In this document: piece by piece, positions 30,084 to 48,238 of the stretch
How the letters are laid out: each line of letters opens with the position of its first letter
Position numbering within the stretch: the first letter of the stretch is position 1
NCBI RefSeq assembly: GCF_001704635.1
Contig: NZ_MAXF01000041.1
Coordinates: 62,001 to 126,000 of the forward strand
DNA: 64,000 nucleotides
DNA from: Streptomyces sparsogenes
GTDB lineage: Bacteria; Actinomycetota; Actinomycetes; Streptomycetales; Streptomycetaceae
Reading direction: 5' to 3'
Notes under the pieces: generated by a model
What the model was told of the DNA's origin: nothing
Database searches by the model: none
What the model saw: the letters and a program-made list of their open reading frames with translations, nothing else
Made by a program: the position numbers and the translations under genes

Positions 30084-30902
30084 GTGGAGAAGGAGCCAGG
30101 GGAGCACGAGACGTCGGCCGGACGCGCGGGCACGCCGCCCGCCGTGCTCATACGGGGGCTGTGGAAGCGGTACGGGGAGCAGGTGGCGGTCGCCGGGATC
30201 GATCTCGAGCTGCCCGCCGGGCGGTTCATCGGACTGGTCGGACCCAACGGGGCAGGCAAGACGACCACCCTGTCCATGGTGACCGGGCTGCTGCGCCCCG
30301 ACTCCGGCACGGTCGAGGTCGGCGGGCACGACGTATGGGGGGACCCGGTCGCGGTGAAGGCGCGGATCGGGGTGCTGCCCGAGGGGCTGCGGCTGTTCGA
30401 GCGGCTGTCGGGCCGCGAACTCCTCGACTACACCGGGCGACTGCGCGGCCTGGCCGCCGACGAGGTCGACAAGCGCGCCACGCAACTGCTGGACGTGCTG
30501 GACCTCGCGGGGTCGCAGCACAAGCTGGTCGTCGACTACTCGACCGGCATGCGGAAGAAGATCGGCCTGGCCGCCGCGCTGCTCCACAACCCGGAAGTCC
30601 TCTTCCTGGACGAGCCCTTCGAGGGCGTGGACCCGGTCTCCGCGCAGACCATCCGCGGCGTGCTGGAGCGCTACACCCGCTCCGGCGCCACCGTCGTCTT
30701 CTCCAGCCACGTCATGGAGCTGGTGGAGTCGCTGTGCGACTGGGTCGCGGTGCTCGCCGCCGGGCGGATCCGGGCCCAGGGCCCGCTGGCGGAGGTGCGG
30801 GGCGCGGCGCCCTCGCTTCAGGACGCCTTCCTGGAGCTGGTCGGCGCGAACGACCGCGCGGCCGGCCACGACCTCGACTGGCTGGGCGGCGGCGCCCGAT
30901 GA
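30084..30902 (+). CDS. ABC transporter ATP-binding subunit
   Basis: A 272-residue ATPase. Walker A is GPNGAGKTT (about 54-62), the signature is YSTGMRKKIGLAAAL, Walker B is VLFLDEPFEGVDP, and the switch His is in VVFSSHVMELVE. The signature is a variant (STGM rather than SGGQ), as in many exporter ATPases for drugs or ions. AAAGGCGGGA precedes the GTG at 30084. A longer start at 30033 (ATG) is possible. The stop overlaps the permease start (ATGA), so the two genes form one exporter of unknown cargo. Confidence 0.93.
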   Translation: MEKEPGEHETSAGRAGTPPAVLIRGLWKRYGEQVAVAGIDLELPAGRFIGLVGPNGAGKTTTLSMVTGLLRPDSGTVEVGGHDVWGDPVAVKARIGVLPEGLRLFERLSGRELLDYTGRLRGLAADEVDKRATQLLDVLDLAGSQHKLVVDYSTGMRKKIGLAAALLHNPEVLFLDEPFEGVDPVSAQTIRGVLERYTRSGATVVFSSHVMELVESLCDWVAVLAAGRIRAQGPLAEVRGAAPSLQDAFLELVGANDRAAGHDLDWLGGGAR

Positions 30903-32521
30903 CCGCCACCGGCTCCCTGACCGCCCCCGCCCCCCTGACCGCGCTGTTCGTCCGGCTCAAGCTGTCCCTGCTGCGCAACGGGCTGCGGCAGTCGGCGAAG
31001 CGGCGCGCCGCGTACATCGGCTCCGTCGTCTTCACCCTCCTCTTCGCGGCGCTCCAACTGCTCGGCCTGATCGCGCTGCGCGGCCACGACCATGCCGCCG
31101 CGCTGGTCACCGTCCTCGCCGCGGTCTTCGCCCTCGGCTGGGCCGTGATGCCGCTGTTCTTCCCCAGCGGCGACGAGACCCTCGACCCCACCCGGCTGGT
31201 GATGCTGCCGCTGCGGCCCCGGCCGCTGGTCCTCGCCCTGCTGGTGTCCTCCCTGATCGGCATCGGCCCGCTGTTCACCCTCACCCTCGCGGTGGGGTCG
31301 GTGATCGCCGTGGCCCACGGCGCGGCGGCCGCGGCGGCGGGCGTGCTGGCCGTGGTCCTGACGATGCTGCTGTGCGCGGCGCTGGCGCGCGCCGTCGCCA
31401 CCGCCAACACGCGGCTGCTCAGCAGCCGCCGGGGCCGCGATCTGGCGCTGCTCAGCGGCCTGTTCGTGGCGGTGGGCGCGCAGTTGCTCAACGTCGGTGT
31501 GGGGAAGCTGTCCGGCGAGAACGGGCTGGCCTCCCTGGAGCCGGTGGCCGACGTGCTGCGCTGGGTGCCGCCGGCGGCGGCCTTCGACGCCGTCCAGGGC
31601 GTCAGCGACGGCTCGTACGGGCCCGCGGCCGCCCAGTTCGCCCTGTCGGCGGCCGCGCTGGCCCTGCTGCTGTGGTGGTGGCAGCGCGGTCTCACCCACC
31701 TGATGACCTCGCCCGACTCCTCGACGATCCAGGCCGCCGAGCCCCGCCGCGAGCGCCCCGCGGGCGCCCGCCCGGCCCTCCACCGCCTGCTGCCCGACGA
31801 CCGCACCGGCACGGTCGTACTGCGCACGCTGCGCTACGCGTGGCGGGACCCGAAGACCAAGTCGGCGTGGGTGACCTCGCTGGCCGTCGGCCTGCTGGTG
31901 CCCTTCGTCACCACCGTCCAGGGCGGCGGGAGCGTCTACACCGCCTGCTGGGCCGCGGGGCTGCTGGGCATGCAGATGTACAACCAGTTCGGGCAGGACT
32001 CCTCGGCGTTCTGGATGGTCGCGCAGACCATTTCCTCCCCGCGCGACGCCTACCTGGAGCTGCGCGGCCGCGCGCTGGCCCTCGCGCTGGTGGGCGTCCC
32101 GTACGTCACGCTGGTGGTGCTCGGCTCGGCCGCGCTCATGGACGAGTGGGCGGCGGCCCCCGAGGCGCTCGGCCTCGCCCTGGCGCTGTTCGGCGCGCTC
32201 GTGGCGACCGGCGCCATGACCTCGGCCCTGTACCCGTACTCCATCCCGCAGGACAGCGGCTACAAGAACGTGGTCCCGGCCCAGGCGGGGCTCGCGTGGG
32301 CGGGCATCTTCGGCGGCATGCTCACCGGCGCGGCGCTGTGCGCGCCGCTGATCGGCGCGACGATCTGGATGCACACGGCGGGCGCGGACGACCGGCTGTG
32401 GCTGCTCCTCCCCCTGGGCGCGGCGTACGGCGCGGCGCTCGCCCTGGCCGGCCTCCGCCTGGCCGCCCCCCGGGTGGCGGCCCGGCTGCCGGAGATCCTG
32501 ACGGCGGTCACGAAGGGCTGA
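30899..32521 (+). CDS. ABC transporter permease
   Basis: A 540-residue integral membrane protein with about 12 helices, including AAYIGSVVFTLLFAALQLLG, ALVTVLAAVFALGWAVMPLF, AAAAGVLAVVLTMLLCAAL and LGLALALFGALVATGAMTSA. It is translationally coupled to the ATPase gene. Long exporter permeases of this kind occur with Walker subunits of the CcmA class in actinomycetes. The substrate cannot be told. The gene ends 25 bp before the convergent anti-sigma-like ATPase. Confidence 0.9.
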   Translation: MTATGSLTAPAPLTALFVRLKLSLLRNGLRQSAKRRAAYIGSVVFTLLFAALQLLGLIALRGHDHAAALVTVLAAVFALGWAVMPLFFPSGDETLDPTRLVMLPLRPRPLVLALLVSSLIGIGPLFTLTLAVGSVIAVAHGAAAAAAGVLAVVLTMLLCAALARAVATANTRLLSSRRGRDLALLSGLFVAVGAQLLNVGVGKLSGENGLASLEPVADVLRWVPPAAAFDAVQGVSDGSYGPAAAQFALSAAALALLLWWWQRGLTHLMTSPDSSTIQAAEPRRERPAGARPALHRLLPDDRTGTVVLRTLRYAWRDPKTKSAWVTSLAVGLLVPFVTTVQGGGSVYTACWAAGLLGMQMYNQFGQDSSAFWMVAQTISSPRDAYLELRGRALALALVGVPYVTLVVLGSAALMDEWAAAPEALGLALALFGALVATGAMTSALYPYSIPQDSGYKNVVPAQAGLAWAGIFGGMLTGAALCAPLIGATIWMHTAGADDRLWLLLPLGAAYGAALALAGLRLAAPRVAARLPEILTAVTKG

Positions 32522-32545
32522 CGCGCTGCCTGTCGGTCTCCCCCT

Positions 32546-32971
32546 TCACGCGCTGCCCGTGGCGAGCGAGAACCACACGCCCTTGCCCTCCGCCCCGCCG
32601 ATCCCCAGCGGGGCGCCGGGCGTCGTCCCCCACTTGTCCGCCAGCGCCTCGACGATCCGCAACCCCCGGCCGCCTTCGGCGTCGAGGCTGGGCGGGCGGA
32701 GGAGCGGTTCGGTCAGGTTGCCGTCGTAGACGGTGACGCAGACCTCGGCGGGCTCGACGGCGAGCCAGAGGACGGAGCCGTTGCCCGGCGCGTGGGCGTA
32801 GGCGTTGGCGGCGAGTTCGGCGGTGCACAGTGCCGCGGTGTCGACCGCGTCGTTGAGCTGTAAGCGACGGAGTACGGAGGTGACGAAGTCGCGAGCGATG
32901 CAGGGGGATGTCTCGAGGGGCGGGCAGTAGAGCGTGTACGAGTGGGGCCGGTGCGGCCTGGAGTTGCCCAT
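32546..32971 (-). CDS. ATP-binding anti-sigma-like protein (HATPase_c), part of an intact triad
   Basis: A 141-residue RsbW-like protein. N box: LCTAELAANAYAHAPGNG. G1: VTVYDGN. G2: EGGRGLRIVEALADKWG. The end, EGKGVWFSLA, is normal. It is divergent from the XRE-DUF5753 gene at 33130, the common Streptomyces arrangement of ATPase / XRE-DUF5753 / DUF397. The ATG at 32971 is preferred over an upstream ATG-type codon at 33070 because family homology starts after it. Such ATPases may bind a sigma factor or a DUF397/DUF5753 partner. Confidence 0.87.
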   Translation of the reverse strand: MGNSRPHRPHSYTLYCPPLETSPCIARDFVTSVLRRLQLNDAVDTAALCTAELAANAYAHAPGNGSVLWLAVEPAEVCVTVYDGNLTEPLLRPPSLDAEGGRGLRIVEALADKWGTTPGAPLGIGGAEGKGVWFSLATGSA

Positions 32972-33129
32972 GCGGTTGCTTCTCTCGTTGAGCGGTGCGT
33001 GAGCGGTACGCCACAGACGGTAGGGTTCAAGATGACTCCGGGGCAACCTTGAAGTCGAAACTGCCCCCAAACGAGGTAGACCGCCGTACGGCGGGACGCC
33101 ACACTCGTCACGAGCCAGGGAAGGACGTC

Positions 33130-33984
33130 ATGCCACCGAGGAGCACCCCAACTGCTCGACAGGAGCGCCTCGGCACCGAGTTGCGCAAGATGCGCGAGGC
33201 TGCGGCCATGACCGCCCGTGACGCCGCACGGCTGCTCGGGGTCGATCCGGCGAAGGTCAGCCACATCGAGTCGGGTCGTGTCGGCGTCAGCGAGGAGCGC
33301 GTACGTCGCCTGGCGGCCTTCTACTCGTGCGACGACACCGCACTTGTCGATGCGTTGTCCGCGATGACGTACGAGCAGCGCGGCGAGGGCTGGTGGGAGG
33401 CGTACCGAGGCGTGCTCCCCGCATCGATGCTCGACCTGGCCGAGATGGAGCACCACGCCACCTATCTGCACACGATCCAGATCACCCACGTGCCAGGCCT
33501 CTTCCAGACCCAGGACTACGCCCGCACGGTCTTCAGCTTCACCTTCCCCCGCCTCCCTCAGGCAGAAATGGAAGCACGGCTCGGCTTCCGGATGGAGCGC
33601 CAAAAGATCCTTCTGCGCGACGAACCCCAGCCGTTCGAAGCCGTCATTCACGAGGCCGCGCTGCGGATGCGATTCGGCGGCCGAAAGGTGGCCCGCGCAC
33701 AGCTCGAACATCTCCGAGAACTGTGCGAGCGACCGAACCTCACCCTGCGGGTGATTCCCTTTCGCGTGGAAGAGCCCATCGGCTCCGGCCACGCGATGTA
33801 CTACACAGGCGGCCCGGTTCCGCAGCTTGACACCGTGCAGATCGACACCGCCCCGGGCGTGAGCTTCCTGCACGCGGAGCCGCACCTCAGGAAATACCGC
33901 ACGCTCTTCGAGGCAGTGAAGGCAGCTTCCCTCAGCTGCGACGCATCGCGAGACCTCCTCGACTCGATCGTCCGAGAGCTATGA
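33130..33984 (+). CDS. XRE-family HTH / DUF5753 regulator (intact triad)
   Basis: A 284-residue regulator with a full HTH at about 12-65 (RLGTELRKMREAAAMTARDAA, then PAKVSHIESGRVGVSEERV). The DUF5753 domain lies at about 95-275 (HHATYLHTIQITHVPGLFQTQDYARTVF; LTLRVIPFRVEEP). AAGGACGTC precedes the ATG at 33130. The stop forms ATGA with the DUF397 gene, as expected. This copy serves as the intact reference for the decayed triad at 3038-4261. Confidence 0.93.
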   Translation: MPPRSTPTARQERLGTELRKMREAAAMTARDAARLLGVDPAKVSHIESGRVGVSEERVRRLAAFYSCDDTALVDALSAMTYEQRGEGWWEAYRGVLPASMLDLAEMEHHATYLHTIQITHVPGLFQTQDYARTVFSFTFPRLPQAEMEARLGFRMERQKILLRDEPQPFEAVIHEAALRMRFGGRKVARAQLEHLRELCERPNLTLRVIPFRVEEPIGSGHAMYYTGGPVPQLDTVQIDTAPGVSFLHAEPHLRKYRTLFEAVKAASLSCDASRDLLDSIVREL

Positions 33985-34193
33985 AAGGCACATTGATGAC
34001 CGCCCCACTCATCTGGCAGAAGTCCTCCTTCTCCCACGAGGAGGGTGAATGCGTGGAGCTGGCCACCGTCGACGGCGCGATACAACTCCGGGAGAGCGAC
34101 GACCCGAACGTCGTCGTCACGACAGCCCCCCACCCGCTCCGCACCCTCATACGCGGCATAAAGGCAGGCGAGTTCGACCACCTCGGCGCATAG
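33981..34193 (+). CDS. DUF397 domain protein (intact triad)
   Basis: A 70-residue DUF397 protein: WQKSSFSHEEGECVELA, then IQLRESDDPNVVVTTAP and a short tail LRTLIRGIKAGEFDHL. It is coupled to the XRE gene by ATGA. In known cases, the XRE-DUF5753 partner and DUF397 act as a pair in development or as a toxin-like/antidote-like unit. That function is not shown for this copy. Confidence 0.9.
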   Translation: MKGTLMTAPLIWQKSSFSHEEGECVELATVDGAIQLRESDDPNVVVTTAPHPLRTLIRGIKAGEFDHLGA

Positions 34194-34243
34194 CCGAAGC
34201 CCGGTCGGCGGGGCGCCGGCCGGGCGACGGGTGGTTCAGCGGA

Positions 34244-35617
34244 TCACCGGGTTTCGAGCAGGCCTGCCGCGAGGACGCTTTGGTAGTAGAGGCCGGCCGC
34301 CCGGCGGCACAGCGCGCGCTCGACGGCGGTGTGGTCGACGGGCCAGTCCCGGCTCTCGCAGATGGTGTTCAGGTCCTGGTGGAAGACACGGTCGATGCGG
34401 TCCTTGTCGGAGTCTCCGTTCACGCTGTTGTGGAAGGACTCCTTGCCCAGCAGGGCCTTGGAGTTGCGGTACCCGAAGTCGTGCCGGTAGCAGGCGAATG
34501 TGAAGTCGAAGCCGCCGATGGAGTCGGGGGCAGGCGCGTTGCACCCGTTTGTGGACCAGTCGAACTCGTAGGGGTCGGGCGTGCCGCTCTGGTGTTCGTA
34601 GAGGGCCGCGTACCAGGCGCGGCGGGCGTCCTCTCCCTCCTGCGTCAGGCTCTTGAGTCGGGCGAGCTTGTCGTCCGAGACCGCGGGGGCGGTCGGCGCG
34701 TGGAGGTCGGTCCACTGGTCGTCCGCCCCGGTGCCGCTGTACATCTGGACGGACCGGTGGTCGGAGGCGAGGCGGTAGAGGCGGTCGCCGCTGGTGGTGA
34801 AGGCGGCGGCGGGCCCGCCGACGCGGTTCCACTCCTCGGGCCGGCCGTTGTACTTGTAGAGGTCACCGGTGTCGGGGTTGGTGGCGTACAGGGTGTTGCT
34901 GCTGAAGATCTCGCCGGCGGGGCCGCCGACCTTGTTCCACTGGTTGTCCTCGGTGTTGTACTCGAAGACGCCGGAGCGGTCGGGGTCCAGTTTGTAGACG
35001 TTGTTGTCGGTGACGGCGAAGGCGGCGCCTGAGCTGCCGATGCCGGCCCACTGGCCGTCCGCGTACTTGTTGAGTTCGCCGGTGGCCGGGTCGGTGGCGT
35101 ACAGGGCGGCGGCGGGGCCGGTGTAGAGGTCCTTGGCGGGGCCGCCGACCTTGGTCCACGTGTCGCCCTGGCCGGTGTACTCCCACACACCGGTGCCGTC
35201 GGGGCCGATGCCGTACAGGTGCTCGCTGGTGGCGGCGAAGGCGGTGCCGGCGCCGCCGATGCGGGACCACTGGCCGGGCTCGCCGTTGTACTTGTTGAGG
35301 TCGCCTGTGGCCGGGTCGGTGGCGTAGACGGCGTCGGCGCTCGCGTAGAGGTCCTTCGCGGGGCCGCCCACCTTTTGCCAGTTGACCGTGTCGGAGGACC
35401 ACTCGTAGACCGCGGAGTTGTCTTCGGCCAGGGCATAGACGCTGTCCTCGGCCGAGACGATCTGGCCCATGGCGACAGGCTCGCCCGACACGGGCTGCTG
35501 CGGGTCGGCATACGCGGGGATGCCGGCGACGAGAGAGGCCGCGCCGAGCAGGAACAGAACCTTCTTGGCAGTGGACAGCCGCCGTGCTGTGGAGTGCGTC
35601 AGTCCGCGTATACGCAT
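34244..35617 (-). CDS. secreted phospholipase A2 fused to a seven-repeat tectonin-like propeller
   Basis: A 457-residue secreted protein. Residues 1-37 are a signal peptide ending AYA-DP. About 49-308 are seven repeats of 36-39 residues, each with a W..(V/I)GG.A-type turn. They alternate between a KDLYA/YATDPATGDLNKY form and a TAFA/YGIGPDGTGVWEY form. This suggests a tectonin-like beta-propeller that binds sugars or lipids. The C-terminal 350-450 part is a bacterial/fungal-type phospholipase A2: CYRHDFGYRN at 376-385 (His379 catalytic, Asp380 calcium) and the second catalytic Asp409 in DRIDRVFHQDL, as in the S. violaceoruber enzyme. A PLA2 releases fatty acid from the sn-2 position of membrane phospholipids. 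The fusion implies a targeted membrane-attacking or lipid-scavenging enzyme. Confidence 0.88.
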   Translation of the reverse strand: MRIRGLTHSTARRLSTAKKVLFLLGAASLVAGIPAYADPQQPVSGEPVAMGQIVSAEDSVYALAEDNSAVYEWSSDTVNWQKVGGPAKDLYASADAVYATDPATGDLNKYNGEPGQWSRIGGAGTAFAATSEHLYGIGPDGTGVWEYTGQGDTWTKVGGPAKDLYTGPAAALYATDPATGELNKYADGQWAGIGSSGAAFAVTDNNVYKLDPDRSGVFEYNTEDNQWNKVGGPAGEIFSSNTLYATNPDTGDLYKYNGRPEEWNRVGGPAAAFTTSGDRLYRLASDHRSVQMYSGTGADDQWTDLHAPTAPAVSDDKLARLKSLTQEGEDARRAWYAALYEHQSGTPDPYEFDWSTNGCNAPAPDSIGGFDFTFACYRHDFGYRNSKALLGKESFHNSVNGDSDKDRIDRVFHQDLNTICESRDWPVDHTAVERALCRRAAGLYYQSVLAAGLLETR

Positions 35618-35785
35618 GGGTAGAGTCCTTTCAGCGTTGATGTGATTCCGGGCACCGGTCCGTTCACGGGGATCCGGTGCATGACATCGACGCTGCGGGC
35701 CGGACTGTTTTCCATCAAGATCGTTCACCTTCGGTGCAGGTCGGCGGCGGACATCGGGGGATTGTCCGCGGACAAAGGGGGGTTC
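35618..35785. promoter_or_regulatory. shared divergent promoter region of PLA2 and HTH-lectin genes
   Basis: The 168-bp gap holds both promoters. CTGAAAGGACTCTACCC on the minus strand gives the PLA2 its ribosome-binding site (AAGGACTC). AAAGGGGGGTTC serves the lectin gene. No clear palindrome is seen. Confidence 0.45.
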
Positions 35786-37231
35786 ATGGGCAGGACTGGC
35801 CGGCCATTTGAAGGGCTGAGGGGCGAGTCGGAGCACATCAACGAGTTAGCGGGAATGCTGTGCCGGCTGACGGAAGGCCTGACGCTGCGCGAGCTCGCCG
35901 AGCGCTATCCGCAAGGCGGCGGAAAGACGTTGTGGGGGCAGTACCGCTCCGGCGAGCGGGCGGTGCCCGCCCACATCCTGCATGAGGTCATCAACCGCCA
36001 GGTACGCGACGCCCGCACCCGGCAGCAGCGGCACGAAGAGGCCAAACGCCTCTACGAACTGGTTGACCAGAAGCAGCCGCGGCAGGCCCCGGCATCGAAG
36101 CCACAGCAGGCCGTGGAGAAGGCCGTACAGGCGCGGCGGCAGGCCGAGACGGACCTGGCGGAAGCGGAAGAGCGCATCCGGAGCCTGGTCGAGGTCATCC
36201 ACCGGCTTGAGCGCGGAAAGACGCAGGACCCGACAGCGGACGGGGATGCCGGGGAGGAACTCCGCCAGGCCAGAGAGAGCCTGACGATCGCCGAAGAGGC
36301 CAAGTCCGACGCGTTACAGGCCCGGAATGCCGCCCTGGAGGACCAGGAGAAGTACCTCCACTCGAACGCAGGACCGCGCGCTCCCCAACAGGCGTCGTCC
36401 GGGGCGGACGGCCCACCGGCCGGAGGCGGCTCCCCGGCGACCGGCAGGACCGGCGACCGCCGGGACCGCTTCCGGCGCTGGCGCACCCCCGCCCAGTGGG
36501 GCGCGCTCGCGGCGCTGCTGGGCGGCATGTGGTTCGTCACCGACAGCCAGAACACCGCAACGTCAGGCGCGGCACCCACCACGTCCGCCACGCCGACGAT
36601 CACGACGCCCCACAGCCCGACGCCAGGGCCCTCGGCGCGGTCCTCCGATCCGTTCACGCGCCCGTCCGGCGGCACAAGGCGGCCCGCACCCACGGCGACC
36701 CCGTCGAAGCCGCAGACACCGTCGGCACCGTCGGCCACCCCATCGCCCGGCCAGAAGCCGCGCGCCCGCGCTGACGCACCGCCGCTGCCGAAGGGCCTGT
36801 TCCGCCTGACCAATGTCGACAGCCACTTGTGCCTGTCCGTGCCCCCGGAGAACACCATCCCATCGGCAGGCCTCATCCAGACCGGCTGTGGCGCGAGCAC
36901 CGAGCAGTTCTGGAAACTTACCGCGGAAGACGCCGGATCAGCCGGAACCACGTACTCGATCCGCAATCAGCACAGCGGTCTGTGCCTTTCGGTCGATGCG
37001 GCACGCAAGGAGAACGACGCCATCATCACGCAGTATCTGTGCGGTGACGACGAGCAAGATCTGTTCCCGGATCAGCTCTGGAGCTTCCGCTACGACACTT
37101 CCCGCCACGCATGGAAGCTGATCAGCCGTAACAGCGGCAAGTGCGTAGCCCTGCCCACTGCGAGCGGGGACGAGGAACAAGTGCTGCAAGAAGAGTGCGG
37201 CGGCGACAGCTGGACACTCTGGCGCACCTGA
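35786..37231 (+). CDS. single-pass membrane protein: putative HTH, coiled coil, TM helix, extracellular ricin-type lectin domain
   Basis: A 481-residue protein with no signal peptide. Residues 12-75 look helix-turn-helix-like (INELAGMLCRLTEGLTLREL, then GKTLWGQYRSGERAVP). About 78-190 are coiled coil. An RRDRFRRWR cluster precedes one TM helix at 235-252, giving an inside-to-outside orientation. A Thr/Pro stalk follows, and the last 135 residues form a ricin B-type beta-trefoil (GLFRLTNVDSHLCLSV; YSIRNQHSGLCLSVDA; WKLISRNSGKCVAL) with QxW-like ends. It resembles membrane-bound regulators that couple outside binding to DNA binding. It is divergent from the propeller-phospholipase, which may be its target. 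DNA binding is not proven. Confidence 0.78.
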   Translation: MGRTGRPFEGLRGESEHINELAGMLCRLTEGLTLRELAERYPQGGGKTLWGQYRSGERAVPAHILHEVINRQVRDARTRQQRHEEAKRLYELVDQKQPRQAPASKPQQAVEKAVQARRQAETDLAEAEERIRSLVEVIHRLERGKTQDPTADGDAGEELRQARESLTIAEEAKSDALQARNAALEDQEKYLHSNAGPRAPQQASSGADGPPAGGGSPATGRTGDRRDRFRRWRTPAQWGALAALLGGMWFVTDSQNTATSGAAPTTSATPTITTPHSPTPGPSARSSDPFTRPSGGTRRPAPTATPSKPQTPSAPSATPSPGQKPRARADAPPLPKGLFRLTNVDSHLCLSVPPENTIPSAGLIQTGCGASTEQFWKLTAEDAGSAGTTYSIRNQHSGLCLSVDAARKENDAIITQYLCGDDEQDLFPDQLWSFRYDTSRHAWKLISRNSGKCVALPTASGDEEQVLQEECGGDSWTLWRT

Positions 37232-37246
37232 GAGTTCGGGCCGTCG

Positions 37247-37600
37247 CTAGTCGAGGTACTTGCTGTAGACCCAGCCCTTCGTTCCGGCCGGAATTCCCGA
37301 ATGGCTCCGCTTCAGGAGCTTGCCGTACGACCAGCTCTTCCTGAAGTCCTTGAGGCCACCCGTCCGGCAGTAATAGCGGAAGGAATCCCCCCGGTAAAGC
37401 GTCCCGATCACGTGATAACGCTTTCCGGGGCCGGTCCGGAACGTCGCTCCACTGGTGCGGACCTTGAAATTGACGTCAGGTGAATCGAACCGGCATGCCG
37501 ACGACCCCACCGCGGACGCCGTCGGTGCCAGGGCCATCGAGCCACCCAGCAGCAGTGAAGCCGTCAACACGATGGCCGAGGCCCTGCGTTTAGCCTGCAC
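37247..37600 (-). CDS. secreted SH3-like domain protein
   Basis: A 117-residue exported protein. The signal peptide is RRASAIVLTASLLLGGSMALAPTASA. The rest is a bacterial SH3-like domain (VRTSGATFRTGPGKRYHVIGTLYRGDSF and GTKGWVYSKYL), with a Cys pair (SACRF; YYCRTG). Such domains bind cell wall or act as inhibitors. The GTG at 37600 follows AGGGGGTGGGATC. It is tail-to-tail with the lectin gene (15 bp gap). Confidence 0.82.
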   Translation of the reverse strand: MQAKRRASAIVLTASLLLGGSMALAPTASAVGSSACRFDSPDVNFKVRTSGATFRTGPGKRYHVIGTLYRGDSFRYYCRTGGLKDFRKSWSYGKLLKRSHSGIPAGTKGWVYSKYLD

Positions 37601-37772
37601 GCGATCCCACCCCCTGATCAGGAACGCTTCCGTTATCGCACCGAAGAGACTAGCACCGGGCATTCACGACGTGACGACCAGGAAACGCGCCAACAGCAAC
37701 TTTCCTAGTCGTGGGCCGCGTTGACGGGTCGGACGGAACCGCTCCGGCAAGTGGGCGCGTCATTACCTAGAG

Positions 37773-38420
37773 CTAGGGCTTGTTGAGGTAGGCCAGGACG
37801 GCCCGGACACGGCGATTGTTGTTGTCGTCGTCGGTGATGCCGAGTTTGCCGAAGATCGAGGTGGTGTATTTGCTGATGGCACTTTCGCTGAGGAAGAGCC
37901 GCTGGGCGATGGCCTGGTTGGACAGCCCCTCCGCCATGAGGCTGAGCACGGAGTGTTCGCGTTCTGTGAGCCGTTCCAGCCGTCGGTTCGAGGATCCGCT
38001 GGAGAGCAGCTTGGTGATGACGGCCGGGTCCATGGCGGTGCCGCCGGCGGCGACGCGTTCCAGGGCGTCGATGAACTGATCGGCGTCGAACACGCTCTCC
38101 TTGAGGAAGTAGCCGATGCCGCCGGCGTCGTCGGCCAGGAGTTCGCGGGCGTACAGCTGCTCCACGTACTGGGAGAGGATCAGGACCGGCAGTCCGGGAA
38201 CCTCGCGGCGGGCGGCGAGGGCCGCCCGCAGGCCCTCGTCCGACTGGGTCGGAGGCATCCGGACGTCGACGACGGCGACGTCCGGCCGCCACCTCAGCAG
38301 CGCGGCGAGCGTCTCGGGTCCGGTGGCGGCCGTCGCCACCACCTGGTGTCCGCATGCCTCGATGAGGCGGACCATGCCGTCGCGCAGGAGGTAGAGGTCT
38401 TCGGCTACAACGATGCGCAC
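37773..38420 (-). CDS. NarL/LuxR-type response regulator
   Basis: A 215-residue regulator. The receiver has Glu7-Asp8, acceptor Asp52 (VAVVDVRMPP), and the Lys of YFLKESVF. The LuxR HTH begins LTEREHSVLSLMAEGLSNQAIAQRL. The ATG at 38420 overlaps the 3' end of the kinase gene by 16 bp, so the pair is coupled. The tail DDDNNNRRVRAVLAYLN is normal for the group. Confidence 0.92.
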   Translation of the reverse strand: MRIVVAEDLYLLRDGMVRLIEACGHQVVATAATGPETLAALLRWRPDVAVVDVRMPPTQSDEGLRAALAARREVPGLPVLILSQYVEQLYARELLADDAGGIGYFLKESVFDADQFIDALERVAAGGTAMDPAVITKLLSSGSSNRRLERLTEREHSVLSLMAEGLSNQAIAQRLFLSESAISKYTTSIFGKLGITDDDNNNRRVRAVLAYLNKP

Positions 38421-39664
38421 GGCACCATCATCCTCGCGCGGGTCGGGCCCCCTGCCGGGCTGGTGATCTCCAGGGTGCCGTCGAAGACGGCGAGGCGGCG
38501 GCGCAGCCCCGCGAGTCCGCCACCCGCCCGCTCATCGGCCCCGCCCCGGCCGTTGTCCTCGACTTCGACGACGATGCCGGTGTCGTCCTGGGTGATGGCG
38601 ATCCGGCCCCGGGTCGCATGGGCGTGCTTGACCGCGTTGGTCAGCAGTTCGGCGATTCCGAAGTACAGGGCGGACTCGATCGGGGGCTCCAGGCGCGGCT
38701 GAACGTCGGCGCTGACGCTGGTTTCCAGCGGGCTGTCCATGGCCAGGGTGCGTACGGCGTCGACGAGCCCCCGGTCGTTCAGTACCGGCGGGTTGATGCC
38801 GTGGACCAGTTCGCGGAGCTCGGCCAGCGAGGTGGCGGCGCCGATCCGCGCCTCTCGCATCAGCGCCTTGGCCTGGTCGGGGTCGGTTTCCATCAGTTTC
38901 TCGGCGGTCGCGAGGGACAGCCCGAGCATGACCAGGCGCGCCTGCGCCCCATCGTGCAGGTCCCGTTCGATCCGGCGGATCTCGGCGGCTTGCGCGAGCG
39001 TGGTGTCGGCGCGCTGGGCCGTCAGCTCGTCCACCCGGTCGGCCAGCGCCATCGCCGACGACGGACGGAGAAGGCGTACGGCCACCGGCTCGACGGACCG
39101 CCAGGCGTACGGGGCGGTGCCGATGGCCACGAGCACGCCGACTACCCCGACCGCCCCGACCCGAGCGGACCCCGGTTGGCTGAAGCCGAGGACCGCCGCC
39201 ACGGCTCCGGCCGGCGGGATGGCCGCGATCACCCCGATGGTGATCGGCACGATCGCGGTGAACCGCAGATCACGCCAGGTGGCGGGATCGCTCCACCAGA
39301 GCCGCAAGCGCTGCTCCCGGCGGGCGTCCTCGCTGGTACGCGAGTAGGAGAAACCGTTCCACCAGTACCCGGTCGACATCTGGGTCACCGGGGTGGCCTC
39401 CCGGTATCCGGCGGGGATGCGGGTGCCCGTCCACTTCGCGACGAGGGAACGGACCATCCGGCAGACCGGGCGGGACAGGGCGGCGGTGCCGATACTCGCC
39501 CATACGAAGGGGCCTATCCACGACCACGGGTTTCCACCCCACCAGAACCACAGCGCCACGGCGGCCGCCCATACGACCGGGACCAGCATGGCGACCGCCA
39601 CCACGACGCACGCCCGCGCGAACCCCACGCACGCACTCGTCACCCACGACCCCAGCGGTTTCAT
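38405..39664 (-). CDS. sensor histidine kinase (NarL type)
   Basis: A 419-residue membrane kinase with four TM segments in two pairs (about 13-60 and 136-183) around a cytoplasmic or outside segment with a WW-rich motif (GYWWNGFSYSRTSEDARREQ). The acceptor is His237 in RIERDLHDGAQARLVMLGL. The N box is AELLTNAVKHAHATRG, the G1 is VEVEDNGRGGAD, and the G2 is GGLAGLRRRLAVF. AAGGAGAATC precedes the ATG at 39664. The signal is unknown. Confidence 0.92.
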   Translation of the reverse strand: MKPLGSWVTSACVGFARACVVVAVAMLVPVVWAAAVALWFWWGGNPWSWIGPFVWASIGTAALSRPVCRMVRSLVAKWTGTRIPAGYREATPVTQMSTGYWWNGFSYSRTSEDARREQRLRLWWSDPATWRDLRFTAIVPITIGVIAAIPPAGAVAAVLGFSQPGSARVGAVGVVGVLVAIGTAPYAWRSVEPVAVRLLRPSSAMALADRVDELTAQRADTTLAQAAEIRRIERDLHDGAQARLVMLGLSLATAEKLMETDPDQAKALMREARIGAATSLAELRELVHGINPPVLNDRGLVDAVRTLAMDSPLETSVSADVQPRLEPPIESALYFGIAELLTNAVKHAHATRGRIAITQDDTGIVVEVEDNGRGGADERAGGGLAGLRRRLAVFDGTLEITSPAGGPTRARMMVPCASL

Positions 39665-39933
39665 GATTCTCCTTGGTACTTCATGACCCAGTGACTCCAC
39701 TGTGCGCCCCGGGGAGTCCGGATCCGGCCGGGTCAGCGCAGAAGTAGGGCTGGACCCACCCCCCTGTGCGTCCAGGCGCATACCGCCCCGGCCCTGCGCT
39801 CCCTAGCGTCGAATCGACACCGGACAGCCCGAGGAAGCAGGAGCCATGGCAACTCCCAGCCGCACCACGGCCGCGACCGACCACATCACCCGCCCGGACA
39901 CCCTGCGGGCCTTCGCCACGGTGAGGACTCGTC

Positions 39934-40284
39934 ATGGCCTACGGCTCGTTCAGTGTCGCGGTCCTCGCCGTGGTCGTCGTCCGCTCGGTCATGGGCCGCG
40001 AGGTGACGTCGTTCATGTGGGGCCGCGCCGGCGGCATGTTCGCGAGCGCCGTCGTCGCGTACTGGCTGACCGTCGTCGCCTCACGGGGCGCACGCTGGGC
40101 CTATATACGCGTGCGCGTCATCGCCGTCGTCGTGCCGATCGCGATCGTCGCCATCGACTCCATCCCCGGCGCCCTCCCGTTGTGGTTCGTCGTCCCGCAG
40201 ATCGCGGGCGCCCTCGCCCTCGCGCCCGCCGCGTTCATCGTCAACCGGCCCGAGCTGCGCGCCGCCTTCCCCAAGGCGCGCTGA
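39934..40284 (+). CDS. small membrane protein, possibly 5'-truncated by a frameshift
   Basis: A 116-residue protein with four hydrophobic segments (SVAVLAVVVV; MFASAVVAYWLTVVA; VIAVVVPIAIVAI; WFVVPQIAGALALAPAAF). No family is named. An upstream ATG at 39846 with a strong GCAGGAG site opens a different frame (MATPSRTTAATDHITR) that loses sense near 39925. Dropping one base there would join it smoothly to this frame. The ATG at 39934 has its own GTGAGGA site. Either the gene is frameshifted or the short start is real. Confidence 0.6.
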   Translation: MAYGSFSVAVLAVVVVRSVMGREVTSFMWGRAGGMFASAVVAYWLTVVASRGARWAYIRVRVIAVVVPIAIVAIDSIPGALPLWFVVPQIAGALALAPAAFIVNRPELRAAFPKAR

Positions 40285-40288
40285 CCTC

Positions 40289-40951
40289 TCAGTGGCCGCC
40301 GCCCGTGAGCAGGCTGTCCAGTTCGGCCGCGAAGAGCTGGGCGGGGTCGAATCCCATTCCGTTGAAGTGGCCCGCGAGTTCCAGGGACAGGACGCCGTGC
40401 AGCCGGGTCCAGAAGGTCAGGGCGCCGTGGAGGGCCGCCGGCGGGGCGGGGTGGTCGTCGACCCATTGGCGGCCGAGGCCTTCGAGGTGTTCGGCGAAGG
40501 GGGGCGCGGGGTCGGCGGAGGGCCGCGCGGTCCAGGCGTCGAGCAGGGTGGCCATGTTCTCGGAGGCGATGGCGGTGATGTCGTCGGGCGCGTGATAGCC
40601 GGGGACGGGGGTGCCGTAGACGAGGAAGTACCGCTGGGGGTCGTCCAGGGCCCAGCCGCGCAGGGCGTGCGCCAGCGCGGCCACGTCGGCGCCGGACTCC
40701 TCGGATGCCGCGCGGAGGGTGTCGGCGAGGCTTCGGTACGCGTCCCGGATGAGCTCGGTGATCAGCTCGTCGCGGCTGGCGAAGTACCGGTAGAGGGCGG
40801 GTCCGCTCATGCCCATCCGCTTGGCGATCGCGTTGAGGGAGAGGGCTGAGGCCCCCGCCGTGGCGATCTGCTCCCACGCGCGCTCCTTGACCTCCGCGCG
40901 CACCTGGGCGCGGTAGCGCTCGCGCGGGGTTGCGCTGCTCGATTCCGCCAT
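40289..40951 (-). CDS. TetR-family transcriptional regulator
   Basis: A 220-residue TetR protein. The HTH lies at about 22-66 (AWEQIATAGASALSLNAIAKRMGMSGPALYRYFASRDEL). The C-terminal part is a TetR_C_13-like ligand domain (WTRLHGVLSLELAGHFNGMGFDP). It is divergent from a quinone-oxidoreductase-like gene with paired operators in the gap, so it most likely represses that enzyme and itself. The ATG at 40951 is chosen; a GTG at 40975 would add eight residues. Confidence 0.92.
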   Translation of the reverse strand: MAESSSATPRERYRAQVRAEVKERAWEQIATAGASALSLNAIAKRMGMSGPALYRYFASRDELITELIRDAYRSLADTLRAASEESGADVAALAHALRGWALDDPQRYFLVYGTPVPGYHAPDDITAIASENMATLLDAWTARPSADPAPPFAEHLEGLGRQWVDDHPAPPAALHGALTFWTRLHGVLSLELAGHFNGMGFDPAQLFAAELDSLLTGGGH

Positions 40952-41001
40952 GGTCCGCCTGCCACCCCTCTTCACCTGCGGGTCTACAGCTTCAAGATTT
41001 A

Positions 41002-41016
41002 GTTAGAAGCTATCAC
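41002..41016 (+). promoter_or_regulatory. TetR operator candidate 1
   Basis: GTTAGAAGCTATCAC matches the reverse complement of operator 2 at 12 of 15 positions. It lies 51 bp upstream of the regulator's start and near the centre of the divergent gap. Confidence 0.55.
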
Positions 41017-41046
41017 GAACCCTGTTGACGTCCGCCCCGCCGTCCA

Positions 41047-41061
41047 GTTATAACTTCTAAC
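41047..41061 (-). promoter_or_regulatory. TetR operator candidate 2
   Basis: GTTATAACTTCTAAC, reading GTTAGAAGTTATAAC on the minus strand, has GTTA...TAAC symmetry. It lies 45 bp before the oxidoreductase ATG, so a bound repressor would cover the promoter. Confidence 0.6.
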
Positions 41062-41106
41062 GAACGCGAGAACTTATAGACAGCGCGGAGCGCAGTGGAG
41101 GTCGTC

Positions 41107-42141
41107 ATGAACGCCGAAGGACTCGTCGAGGTCGTCCTGCCGGGCACGGTGGAGCCGGAAGGGCTTCAGGTCCGCTCGGGCGGGGCGGTCCCCTCTCCGG
41201 GACCGGGACAGGTCGTGATCAAGATGGAGGCGACCGGCGTCTCGTTCGCCGAGCAGCAGATGCGGCGCGGCCGCTACTACGACCAGCCGCCGTTCCCGTT
41301 CGTGCCGGGCTATGACCTGGTCGGCACGGTGGCGGCGACCGGGGAGGGCGTCGCGCCGGCGACGGCCGGGACCCGGGTGGCCGCGCTGGTGAAGGTCGGC
41401 GGGTGGGCCAGCCATGTGGTCGTCGACGCGGCGGACGTGGTCGAGGTCCCCGACGGGGTCGGCGCGGCGGAGGCGGAGACCCTGGTCATCAACGGGATCA
41501 CCGCCTGGCAGATGCTCCACCGCAAGGCACGCGTCCGCGCGGGGCAGACCGTCGTGGTGTACGGCGCCAACGGCGGCGTCGGCTCGGTCCTGGTCCAACT
41601 CGCCCACGCCGCCGGGGCGAAGGTGATCGGCACGGCGTCCACCCGCCACCACGCCGCCCTGCGGGAGCAGGGGGTCACCCCGGTCGACTACCGCGCCGGG
41701 GACGTCGCCGCGCGGATCCGCGAGCTCGCTCCCGGCGGGGTGGACGCCGTCTTCGACCACGTCGGCGGCCGGGGCATCGTCGACTCCTGGCGCCTCCTCG
41801 CGCCCGGCGGCACCCTCGTCTCGTACGGCAGCGCCTCCACCCGGGACGACCGGGGCTCCAAGCAGTGGCCCGTGCTCAAACTCCTCGGCCGCGTCTGGCT
41901 GTGGAACGCCCTGCCCAACCGCCGCCGCGCCTACTTCTACAACGCCTGGGCCGGGCGGTCCCTGGCCAAGAACCGCTTCCGGGCCCGGCTGCGCCACGAC
42001 CTCACCCAGGTCTTCGCCGCCTTCCAGCGCGGTGACATCACCGCCCGGATCGCCGCCCAACTGCCGCTCACCCGCGTCGCCGAGGCCGTGCGGCTGGCCG
42101 AATCCGGCACCGTCGCCGGCAAGGTCGTGCTGACCCCGTAG
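41107..42141 (+). CDS. zinc-independent MDR oxidoreductase (quinone reductase-like)
   Basis: A 344-residue medium-chain dehydrogenase/reductase. The N-terminal GroES-like part (GQVVIKMEATGVSFAEQQMRRGRY; FVPGYDLVGTVAATG) lacks the cysteines that bind zinc. The Rossmann part has VYGANGGVGSVLVQLAHAAGAKVIG. It is probably an NADPH-dependent reductase of quinones or enones, as in the QOR group. The ATG at 41107 follows GTGGAGG. It is controlled by the divergent TetR, which suggests induction by an electrophile or antibiotic-like compound. Confidence 0.9.
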   Translation: MNAEGLVEVVLPGTVEPEGLQVRSGGAVPSPGPGQVVIKMEATGVSFAEQQMRRGRYYDQPPFPFVPGYDLVGTVAATGEGVAPATAGTRVAALVKVGGWASHVVVDAADVVEVPDGVGAAEAETLVINGITAWQMLHRKARVRAGQTVVVYGANGGVGSVLVQLAHAAGAKVIGTASTRHHAALREQGVTPVDYRAGDVAARIRELAPGGVDAVFDHVGGRGIVDSWRLLAPGGTLVSYGSASTRDDRGSKQWPVLKLLGRVWLWNALPNRRRAYFYNAWAGRSLAKNRFRARLRHDLTQVFAAFQRGDITARIAAQLPLTRVAEAVRLAESGTVAGKVVLTP

Positions 42142-42275
42142 CACCCGGCGCCGCCCCTGCCCGCGCCACCGTCCCGAGCCGCGCCGCCGTCCCTGCCAGC
42201 GCCACCGTCCCGAACCGCGACCACGACGGCCTCACCCGCGACCTCACCCACCATGCCCTAACGAGAGGAACCACC

Positions 42276-42947
42276 ATGTTCGGCAGCCGCCGTTCGCACT
42301 CCCCCGCCCCGCAGCCCCGGCCCCGGGCCGGCGTACGCGCCGCCGCCCTCACCGTCCCGCTCGCCCTCGCCGGCGTCCTCGGGGCCGCCGCCCCGCCCGC
42401 CCAGGCCGACCCGCCCGCCCCCCACAGCCGTCCCGCGCAGTGCCGAGGAGAAGGCGTCGACCCCGACGCCCGGATTCGCTACCGGTCCGACACCGTGATC
42501 AACGCACCGCTGAGCACCGTCTTCTCGCTGCAGACCGACGTGGAGCGCTGGCCGTCCTGGCAGCCGCCCGTCCTCACCGCGGAGCGCCTGGACCCCGGCC
42601 CGCTGCGGAAGGGTTCGCGGTTCCGGTGGACCACCCCCGCGCCCGCCACCCCCTCGACCCCCGCCACCACCCTGAAGATCACCTCCACCGTCCGGCAGCT
42701 CCAGCGCGGCCACTGCGTGCTGTGGCGCGGGCCCGCGATCGGCGAGGGGCTGCGCATCGACGAGGGGGTCCACCTGTGGACCTTCACCAAGGTCAAAGGC
42801 GGCGTCCGGGTGCACACCGAGGAGACCTGGACCGGCGCCCAGGTCGAGGCCGACATCCCCACCGCGACCGCGGCACTCGGCGCGGGCCTCGACGCCTGGC
42901 TGCGCGACCTGAAGACCACCGCCGAGGCCCGCGCCCACGGGCGGTGA
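42276..42947 (+). CDS. exported SRPBCC-family protein
   Basis: A 223-residue protein with an N-terminal signal peptide (hydrophobic VRAAALTVPLALAGVLGAAA ending AQA-DP). An SRPBCC/polyketide cyclase-like fold follows: VINAPLSTVFSLQTDVERWPSWQPPV, then FRWTTP and LWTFTKVKGGVRVHTEETW. These folds bind hydrophobic ligands. Secretion is unusual for the family. GAGAGGAACCACC precedes the ATG. The gene shares direction with the oxidoreductase after a 134-bp gap containing two copies of GCGCCACCGTCCCGA. Both genes may act on the same compound. Confidence 0.85.
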   Translation: MFGSRRSHSPAPQPRPRAGVRAAALTVPLALAGVLGAAAPPAQADPPAPHSRPAQCRGEGVDPDARIRYRSDTVINAPLSTVFSLQTDVERWPSWQPPVLTAERLDPGPLRKGSRFRWTTPAPATPSTPATTLKITSTVRQLQRGHCVLWRGPAIGEGLRIDEGVHLWTFTKVKGGVRVHTEETWTGAQVEADIPTATAALGAGLDAWLRDLKTTAEARAHGR

Positions 42948-42952
42948 CCGGG

Positions 42953-43834
42953 CTACGCGGGCAACACCGAGGCCAGGAAGGGCTCCACGGCCCGGCGCCA
43001 GCCGTCCGGCTGGTCGTAGTGGACGAGATGGCCCGCGTCCGTCACCTCCGCGTACTCACCGCGGGGCAGGACACGGACCATCTCCTGCGCCTCCGCCCGG
43101 CCCAGTTCGCCGTCCAGGCCGCGCACCACGAGGGTGGGGCACTCGACGAGCGCGAGCTCTTCCCAATGGGCGTCATGCACCCAGGCCGCGCGGGCCTTGA
43201 GCATCTGGCGGCGGGAGAAGACCGGGCGCCAGCCGTCCGAGCGCTCGGTCATGACCTCGGCGAAGAACTCGCCCCTGGCCGGATTCGGCCGCTCCAGCCG
43301 CGGGTCGTCCTCGCCGAACCACTTGCGCACATCGGCGAGGGTGGCGAAGGGCAGCGGCCAGGAGGCGAACCACTCGGCCCACTCCGCCTGCGAGGCGGAG
43401 CCCAGGGCGGAGGCCCGCATATCGCAGATGACCAGCGCCCGGACCAGGTCGGGGCGGCGGGCGGCCAGCTGCCAGGCGGTGAGGGCGCCCATGGAGTGGC
43501 CGATGAGGGTGACGGGGGCCAGGCCCAGCTGCTCGACCGCGGCCTCGGCGTCGGCCACATACGTGGCGCGGTCGAACGGGCCGTCGGCGGGCTTCTCGCT
43601 GCGGCCGTGGCCCCGCTGGTCGAGGGCGACGGCCCGATGGCGGGTGGCCAGCCAGCGCGCGGTCCGCGCCCAGTGGGCCGCCCGGCCCATCAGGCCATGG
43701 AGCAGAAGCACTCCCGGCCCGGGCGGTGTCGGCTCGCCGCCGTCCGCCTTGGGCGGATCGGCGAACTCCCAGGCGGCGAGCCGCACGCCGCCGGCTCCCG
43801 TCACGTCGATGCGCCGCGCCATCTGTTCTGGCAC
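42953..43834 (-). CDS. alpha/beta hydrolase
   Basis: A 293-residue hydrolase. It has LLLHGLMGRAAHW (oxyanion HG), ALDQRGHGRS, the nucleophile elbow GHSMGA, and a late VTDAGHLVHYDQP with the catalytic His. Family members are esterases, haloperoxidases or epoxide hydrolases, and no substrate is implied. The GTG at 43834 is chosen because GGAGGAACGGAG precedes it; a TTG at 43855 is the longest start. It ends 5 bp from the convergent SRPBCC gene. Confidence 0.88.
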   Translation of the reverse strand: MPEQMARRIDVTGAGGVRLAAWEFADPPKADGGEPTPPGPGVLLLHGLMGRAAHWARTARWLATRHRAVALDQRGHGRSEKPADGPFDRATYVADAEAAVEQLGLAPVTLIGHSMGALTAWQLAARRPDLVRALVICDMRASALGSASQAEWAEWFASWPLPFATLADVRKWFGEDDPRLERPNPARGEFFAEVMTERSDGWRPVFSRRQMLKARAAWVHDAHWEELALVECPTLVVRGLDGELGRAEAQEMVRVLPRGEYAEVTDAGHLVHYDQPDGWRRAVEPFLASVLPA

Positions 43835-47827: not shown

Positions 47828-48238
47828 GGGACACCCCCCTGGTGGGACCTGCTGGGCCTGTCCGACATTCAACTCGAACGTGACACGCGCCACACCGGAT
47901 TCCGCGAAATCGTTGCGCCCCGGAAATTCACTTGTGGCCCGGCGAGCCGCTTCTTAGGGTGTGGAGCACACGAGAAGGGAGGTGGTTCGGCAGATGTATC
48001 AAATCCGGACGCGTGAGGTGGCTGCGGGCTAGCAGTCCGTCGTCGCGCTCAGCGCATTCGCCGGACACGCGCATCGCAGGATGTGCGGCCGGCCAATCCC
48101 AAGCAGTCACCCGACCCGCGGGTCGCCGGTACGTCCGACCGGCCCCCTCGCGCCACGGCGCAGGGGTACAGACCCGCGGGTCGCCTGCGTTTCCGCCCCC
48201 TTCACTCCGGCGTTCACCTGTTCGTCAGGGGCGATCCG
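47828..48238. other. 411-bp intergenic region with two palindromes and a 12-codon leader-like ORF
   Basis: No ordinary gene is seen. Two copies of GACCCGCGGGTCGCC (48113-48127 and 48171-48185), each containing the palindrome GACCCGCGGGTC, lie 58 bp apart. On the plus strand an ATG at 47994 after GGGAGGT gives the 12-residue frame MYQIRTREVAAG (47994-48032). The palindromes could be operators for the PAS/GAF gene 290-340 bp away or a terminator of pdxH. Confidence 0.4.

Follow-up and report, generated by a model that had tools for sequence, protein, structure and literature searches.

A divergent gene pair for a propeller-borne phospholipase A2 and a possible lectin-bearing membrane regulator in Streptomyces sparsogenes

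Within a 64,000-nucleotide stretch of Streptomyces sparsogenes DNA (hereafter the window, meaning that whole stretch; the genome comprises 8.9 Mb in 275 contigs), two genes lie head to head, and the locus raises the question of what a secreted lipase and a lectin-bearing membrane protein would do together. The gene on the minus strand (34244..35617) encodes P0002, a protein of 457 amino acids (aa) with a propeller and a phospholipase A2 (PLA2) domain; the gene on the plus strand (35786..37231) encodes P0001, a protein of 481 aa with a helix-turn-helix (HTH)-like N-terminal domain, a probable transmembrane helix and a ricin-type trefoil. The open reading frames agree with an earlier sequence-only reading of this DNA in both the divergent arrangement and the intervening 168 bp (35618..35785). 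Both genes are confirmed, and they form a unit. Each part of the pair is known in kind; among the papers listed by literature searches, which covered few subscription journals and included one on the hexamers of the intergenic region, no description of the combination was seen.

A propeller-borne toxin family and its partner genes

Pfam assigned residues 344-450 of P0002 (34268..34588, minus strand) to PF09056 with 74.2 bits against a cut-off of 29.4 (E 1.6e-20), and the best PDB chain was 1faz, a PLA2 (E 5.2e-18). The motif CYRHDFGYRN at residue 376 fits CxxHxxxYxN, and H379 and D409, which we take to be the catalytic residues, are both present. Based on profile and motif, P0002 is a prokaryotic PLA2 (PF09056), or Tox-PLA2, with predicted lipase activity. 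A Sec-type signal peptide was recognised by eye at residues 1-37 (VLFLLGAASLVAGI, AYA/DP; 35507..35617, minus strand). The catalytic domain is common to P0002 and to 1faz and 1kp4, presumably the secreted PLA2 of Streptomyces; however, the PDB chain, at 122 residues, is the catalytic domain alone, with no propeller.

AlphaFold, run on the single P0002 sequence with no alignment, predicted 28 strands in residues 50-306 (34700..35470, minus strand), which correspond to seven blades of four strands with pLDDT (predicted local distance difference test) mostly ~80-88; the lipase part was poorly modelled. Foldseek identified tectonin 2 from Laccaria (5fsb) as the nearest solved fold. P0002 falls below the cut-off of the Pfam tectonin family PF19193 (21.7 bits vs 30), and four related toxins reach 76-88 bits against it. 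The propeller fold looks tectonin-like, and we read the propeller as a probable glycan-binding lectin or delivery module rather than a membrane anchor because of this fold and because the same scaffold also bears nucleases. The sequence-only reading had thus been right about a secreted PLA2 with His379 and Asp409 and about seven propeller repeats, whereas its suggestion that the propeller targets the lipase to membranes found no support, the same propeller carrying nucleases. Neither P0001 nor P0002 had a match in NCBIfam, and neither matched a PADLOC profile at E up to 0.1, which speaks against a known defence system.

To judge from 150 Streptomyces genomes, the pair is not a common feature of the genus: 93 had matches to P0002, mostly confined to its PLA2 part, and outside the genome of the window no match in the remaining 149 spanned propeller and PLA2. 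A P0002 scan of genome contigs, made with narrow patterns, found no further relative. Among the 72,556 plasmid records of PLSDB, the propeller occurred in 21 and the N-terminal domain of P0001 (hereafter the N-domain) in 35, and all 21 lay within the 35. The best propeller and N-domain matches were ≤2.2 kb apart in 21/21 records, which rules out chance neighbourhood, though the records are not all independent (four examined near-copies, L125 and L180-L182, and others that look like near-copies by score). The sequence-only reading had treated the two genes as a pair, and their recurrence on plasmids supports this; of the two outcomes that it named as refuting, genes apart in other genomes and an N-terminus with no DNA-binding fold, neither was seen. 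Relative to the N-domain gene, the propeller gene is divergent in 15 of the 21 records, downstream on the same strand in 4 and convergent in 2; in the six non-divergent records, a secreted RICIN-domain protein is the divergent partner of the N-domain gene. In addition, one open frame of 589 residues (G094) holds both an N-domain and a propeller of the P0002 type, a fusion that ties the two genes of the window to each other.

Relatives of P0002 over at least 80% of its length were found in 15 plasmid records. Elsewhere, the propeller scaffold carries other C-terminal domains, namely a NucA/NucB DNase, a DNA/RNA non-specific endonuclease (Endonuclea_NS_2), and PT-HINT with RNAse_A_bac; at one locus (L052) it is followed by no recognised C-terminal domain. 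One delivery scaffold with swappable C-terminal toxins is what characterises polymorphic toxins. Two nuclease members are each followed immediately by an SMI1/KNR4-type gene, and another such gene comes third behind a PLA2 member. Zhang et al. 2012 (PMC3482391) list Tox-PLA2, with the motif CxxHxxxYxN, among the polymorphic-toxin domains. Since the propeller carries exchangeable toxins and Tox-PLA2 is such a listed domain, the window lipase is most plausibly the PLA2 representative of a family of propeller-borne toxins, and would itself be toxic. The shared feature is a PLA2 with this motif as an exchangeable C-terminal toxin; unlike the Tox-PLA2 proteins described there, the window PLA2 sits behind a tectonin-like propeller, is predicted to be secreted and has a divergent gene for a lectin-bearing HTH membrane protein. 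The portion of PMC3482391 covered here has 0 occurrences of the term "tectonin." The sequence-only reading missed this polymorphic-toxin family, with its exchangeable effector and sensor domains and often a third gene, mostly on plasmids. Another propeller of the same type was seen in a secreted protein behind an M23 peptidase-like domain recognised by eye (L003, 1336-2682).

Of the 21 plasmid loci with a propeller, 17 were inspected for a third gene, and a secreted protein with a common N-terminal part of ~190 residues was identified in 12/17 (L049-L054, L125, L127, L129 and L180-L182, the last three assigned through 99.5-99.8% DNA identity to L125). Contig L137 likewise carries such a protein. 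DCSGF, with its Cys, and a His are invariant in 10/10 aligned sequences. Three of the four weak PDB matches of this protein are NlpC/P60-type wall hydrolases (E 0.22-0.33). Against NLPC_P60, two of four proteins scanned at E up to 10 scored 13.5 and 14.3 bits, below the cut-off of 23, and three others, scanned at E up to 0.01, gave none. In nine of ten, the N-terminal part is followed by a propeller or trefoil; the protein of L054 lacks a lectin. The third-gene protein would open the wall for the toxin. The two-gene form is found in the window, L045-L048 and L126.

The N-domain family and the shared intergenic region

P0001 consists of the N-domain (residues 1-97; 35786..36076), a coiled-coil-like stretch recognised by eye (weak Alanine_zipper match in Pfam, E 0.17), a probable single transmembrane helix that is weak in this member (residues 234-252; 36485..36541), a linker rich in Pro, Thr and Ser, and a ricin-type beta-trefoil (residues 336-480; 36791..37225), all on the plus strand. 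The trefoil, expected outside the cell, lies above the Pfam cut-offs of both PF14200 (77.8 vs 25.6 bits) and PF00652 (51.4 vs 29 bits). The ATG at 35786 is backed by an N-terminus, M-G/A-R-x-G-R, common to close relatives. Among 17 N-domain proteins with a secreted partner, 14 have a 19-residue segment above 1.6 on the Kyte-Doolittle scale, the exceptions being those of the window, L054 and L129.

The N-domain of P0001 matched 0 Pfam families at E up to 10, and so no HTH, HTH_25 or RodZ profile. A model built from eight sequences reached pLDDT 82 and contains five helices, at residues 16-28, 34-40, 47-55, 62-72 and 76-96. Foldseek placed the DNA-binding domains of BldD (probability 0.99, E 0.28), Aca2 and ClgR on top, with others weaker, and VIA-align matched the model to C.EcoT38I (Z 9.1, root-mean-square deviation 3.8, 81 residues aligned) and also to the HTH domain of RodZ (2wus; Z 7.7, root-mean-square deviation 2.1, 73 aligned). 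An XRE-type fold of the N-domain is well supported by this model. Enzymes with an XRE-like domain (MPnS, HppE) are among the VIA-align matches as well, so the fold alone does not prove DNA binding; we nevertheless regard DNA binding by the N-domain as probable. The trefoil and a DNA-binding type of fold at the N-terminus had both been proposed from the letters alone, and both stand.

The five-helix HTH fold is common to the N-domain model and the XRE/Cro-C1 regulators (BldD, ClgR, controller proteins); unlike these, P0001 has no Pfam HTH match and is probably membrane-tethered with an outer lectin. In one-component regulators of the ToxR/CadC type, a DNA-binding domain in the cytoplasm is joined through a single membrane pass to a sensor outside the cell. 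The layout proposed for P0001 is the same, and P0001 differs in an XRE-like rather than winged HTH, an outer lectin and a toxin partner. RodZ combines an XRE-like HTH with one membrane pass; unlike RodZ, with which it shares a fold match only, P0001 has no RodZ or HTH_25 match in Pfam and has an outer lectin and an upstream cis-element.

We scanned 392 Streptomyces genomes with a profile of the N-domain; strong places (E < 1e-20) numbered at least 33 in at least 24 genomes, a rough figure for which the best ~13 candidates per genome were scored and some strong places had seeded the profile. Weaker matches are widespread, in at least 269/392 genomes at E ≤ 1e-5; three such genes that were fetched (L122-L124) each encode a short protein with a single membrane segment; of these, L122 was scanned and proved to be an HTH_31-DUF2690 protein. 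In a sample of 296 genomes across the phylum, all 7 with an N-domain match (E ≤ 1e-5) belong to Streptomyces, 1 of 198 genera; relatives were also found in Kitasatospora and Actinokineospora. Behind the N-domain, we found a trefoil, a tectonin-like propeller, a PQQ propeller, DUF3558, a deaminase with SUKH-4, a solute-binding-like part (by eye) or a multi-transmembrane part. In the chain with the deaminase (L092, 6859-8997), the deaminase is of the XOO_2897 type and is accompanied by a SUKH-4 domain of immunity type. Beside many N-domain genes that lack a toxin (22/64 loci), a tiny divergent open reading frame encodes a hydrophobic peptide of one of three sequence types; the nine peptides read (L092, 6533-6706, and those of L103, L112, L128, L131, L133, L109, L113 and L132) are 47-68 aa long, and two scanned against NCBIfam had no match.

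The intergenic region of the window contains a GCAGGTC box (35736..35742, plus strand), an imperfect half-site GGACAT recognised by eye (35749..35754, plus strand; several relatives have GGACAA here) and a palindrome, TTGTCCGCGGACAA (35762..35775), which ends 10 bp before the P0001 start codon and is a candidate operator. It is the only exact match of the pattern TTGTCCNNGGACAA in the genome, where the reversed control gave 0. We assembled 46 non-redundant 150-bp regions upstream of N-domain genes, reduced from 56 by a cut at 80% identity; second-domain matches, places with E above 1e-15 and L089, the duplicate of the window, had been left out beforehand. The controls were 372 regions upstream of other genes at fetched loci, from which redundancy was not removed. 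GGACAA/TTGTCC occurred in 32/46 vs 29/372 regions, and at least twice in 22/46 vs 5/372 (Fisher 2e-20 for single and double occurrence; shuffles had a mean of 3.1 and a maximum of 9 of 46). The element was first spotted by eye, so these tests are after the fact; in an unguided count over the N-domain upstream regions, GGACAA was the most frequent hexamer. A second hexamer, GCAGGT/ACCTGC, was found upstream of 20/46 N-domain genes vs 45/372 controls. The shared gap, which the sequence-only reading took for a regulatory region, therefore holds a cis-element enriched upstream of the N-domain family.

GGACAA/TTGTCC was present in 9/10 regions where the divergent partner is a secreted lectin or toxin, in 17/20 where it is a small membrane peptide and in 6/16 with neither; the element thus accompanies the presence of a divergent partner. 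By eye, many sites of the family are spaced half-sites rather than exact palindromes. No consensus sigma-70 promoters or terminators were predicted at the locus, which is uninformative in Streptomyces, and Rfam gave no match within 34244-37231.

A possible lectin-guided weapon and alternative explanations

We lean, with modest confidence, towards a reading in which P0001 would bind the divergent promoter, its outer lectin would report a glycan, and a lectin-guided toxin would be made when the target is near. The cytoplasmic XRE-type domain would bind the GGACAA/TTGTCC sites of the shared promoter region, and P0001 would act as a one-component regulator with one membrane pass, its outer lectin reading a surface or released glycan; ligand binding would alter its grip on DNA and so set toxin expression. 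The propeller, probably a glycan-binding lectin, would deliver the PLA2, which would break the phospholipids of a competitor's membrane. In relatives, the regulator might also set the expression of the lectin-bearing protein, which probably cuts the wall and would thereby give access to the membrane.

Umbrella (Umb) toxins have two hallmarks, the trypsin-like domain of UmbA and the ALF-type spokes of UmbC, and a Pfam scan of P0001 and P0002 found neither. The part of the Umbrella report covered here (PMC13274773) describes UmbA as a trypsin-like domain plus lectin, lectins (beta-propeller, ricin-B) that aim polymorphic toxins at other Streptomyces, and a teichuronic-acid-like glycan as receptor; these toxins are a precedent for Streptomyces lectins aiming toxins at glycans. 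Unlike Umbrella, the window has lectin and toxin in one polypeptide, with a membrane regulator and, in relatives, often a hydrolase-like protein alongside.

A bolder version, which we offer tentatively, is a contact-triggered weapon: the tethered XRE regulator would display the lectin type of the weapon, the glycan used for aiming would also switch on production, and the regulator family would be modular, with a constant DNA-binding head and operator type joined to many different outer sensors and, as divergent partner, to either a toxin or a tiny membrane peptide. This idea draws on the trefoils of the regulator and the hydrolase-like protein, whose DNA identity over 402 bp is 98.5% in L125, 99.5% in L180, 99.8% in L181 and 100% in L182; ~500 bp are homologous at 97.6-99.4% between the two genes in these four plasmids. 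In L180-L182, but not in L125, the within-locus identity exceeds that to the other three plasmids, which does not go beyond 99.3%. In the near-copies L127 and L050, the within-locus identities are 85.8 and 82.8%, vs 70.9-77.9% to the other plasmid group. These identities point to repeated homogenisation of the two trefoils, and near-identical lectins in some plasmids are probably kept so by gene conversion. In some loci, sensor and weapon may thus share a ligand.

Such identity could also arise by neutral conversion between neighbouring inverted copies with no selected shared ligand, which would touch the lectin argument alone; we hold this to be rather unlikely. The close, head-to-head arrangement of the copies favours conversion, the two proteins differ in fold at other loci, and the orthologous trefoils of L127 and L050 (96.3 and 92.5%) are closer than the within-locus copies, although the latter still resemble each other more than they resemble the other plasmid group. 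Lectin matching is not universal: L049, L051, L052 and the window have different folds, and the partner in L054 has no lectin. Propeller-type loci show no clear within-locus excess; the L129 sensor is 57% identical to its own hydrolase-like propeller and 56-57% to those of L053 and L049.

Several observations weigh against the regulator-and-toxin reading. In the window itself, the sensor bears a trefoil and the toxin a propeller, that is, unlike lectins; no immunity gene was recognised beside the PLA2, and a search with no positive control found no third gene in the genome. The best Kyte-Doolittle 19-mer of P0001 reaches just 0.95 (residues 234-252, preceded by RDRFRRWR), so that the single membrane pass claimed by the sequence-only reading fits most of the family and is marginal in this protein. 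For the HTH model, the best E-value from Foldseek was a weak 0.28. Across the family, 14/35 N-domain plasmid records had no propeller match, and at 25/64 N-domain loci neither a toxin-type nor a peptide-type divergent partner was recognised within 3.5 kb. Finally, the pattern TTGTCCNNGGACAA had 113 copies in 44 of 199 genomes (summed from a table; reversed control 37), some forming arrays or lying inside or beside ParA/ParB-like genes, and only 2/31 palindrome loci examined had an N-domain gene, the window's own being one; genus-wide, the latter count rules out that the exact palindrome specifically marks N-domain genes.

These copies bear on an alternative in which GGACAA/TTGTCC is the site of a plasmid ParB/KorB-type protein that silences plasmid-borne genes, the N-domain protein not being its binder. 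Copies of TTGTCCGCGGACAA lie within or next to gene pairs at L162, L169, L152 and L171, with a spacing of 69 bp at L162 and of 78 bp at L169; L152 and L162 have ParA/ParB-like pairs, and the first gene at L171, tested for ParA alone, is ParA-like. At such pairs, the palindrome is a probable parS-type site of Streptomyces plasmids, and some toxin-regulator pairs adjoin parA/parB on plasmids, so a plasmid ParB could be the true binder of the element. In the genome of the window, however, the palindrome is single, with no array as in the ParA/ParB-like loci, and it stands at an N-domain gene on an apparently chromosomal island; this and the many spaced half-sites of the family make the alternative very improbable. 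A different objection is that P0001 is no transcription factor and that its N-domain binds a protein, as RodZ binds MreB, while the outer trefoil, bound at the surface, would serve as decoy or immunity factor by capturing the secreted weapon or masking its ligand. The RodZ HTH domain is among the fold matches, and near-identical lectins on weapon and membrane protein would also fit competition for one ligand; given an N-domain found with many unrelated outer parts (solute-binding-like, DUF3558, PQQ propeller, multi-transmembrane) and a cis-element enriched upstream of its genes, we judge this distinctly unlikely. Nor do we favour a foraging unit with no antagonism, in which the lipase would be an exoenzyme that digests phospholipids from dead cells or from plant or fungal matter, switched on by the lectin protein as substrate sensor. 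PLA2-type matches are indeed common in the genus, and the missing immunity gene would fit; nonetheless, the other PLA2 matches of the genus have no propeller in the matched stretch, and the propeller scaffold also bears nucleases, one an RNase behind PT-HINT and some with SMI1/KNR4 neighbours, which leaves foraging unlikely.

As far as we know, the timing with which Streptomyces deploy protein weapons is largely open. With sensor, cis-element, aiming lectin and toxin in one small module, the idea that a weapon's lectin is also its trigger is directly testable; a matched-lectin trigger, if true, would go beyond a variation on known kinds. The N-domain family, annotated as "hypothetical" or "RICIN domain-containing," can also point to linked toxins.

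The island and neighbouring genes

The pair lies within a stretch of ~10.4 kb (32522..42952) delimited by comparison of the flanking genes with seven relatives. The flanking genes, for an ABC-type permease and a hydrolase-like protein (30899-32521 and 42953-43822), directly adjoin in 5/7 relatives; of the remaining two, one lacks the right-hand gene and the other (L177) has a different stretch of ~11 kb in this position. The pair therefore probably sits on an acquired island at a variable site. Gene order to the right of the island is conserved on large contigs of relatives, and for this reason the island is apparently chromosomal.

Within the island, beside the pair, a small ATP-binding-regulator-like gene (by eye) and a DUF5753 HTH gene (32546-33984) form what we take to be a whiJ-like set. 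A small, probably secreted SH3_3 protein is encoded at 37247-37663, convergent with the regulator gene. Farther along the window, at 47968-48189, Rfam identified the actinobacterial small RNA Ms_IGR-5 with 93.5 bits.

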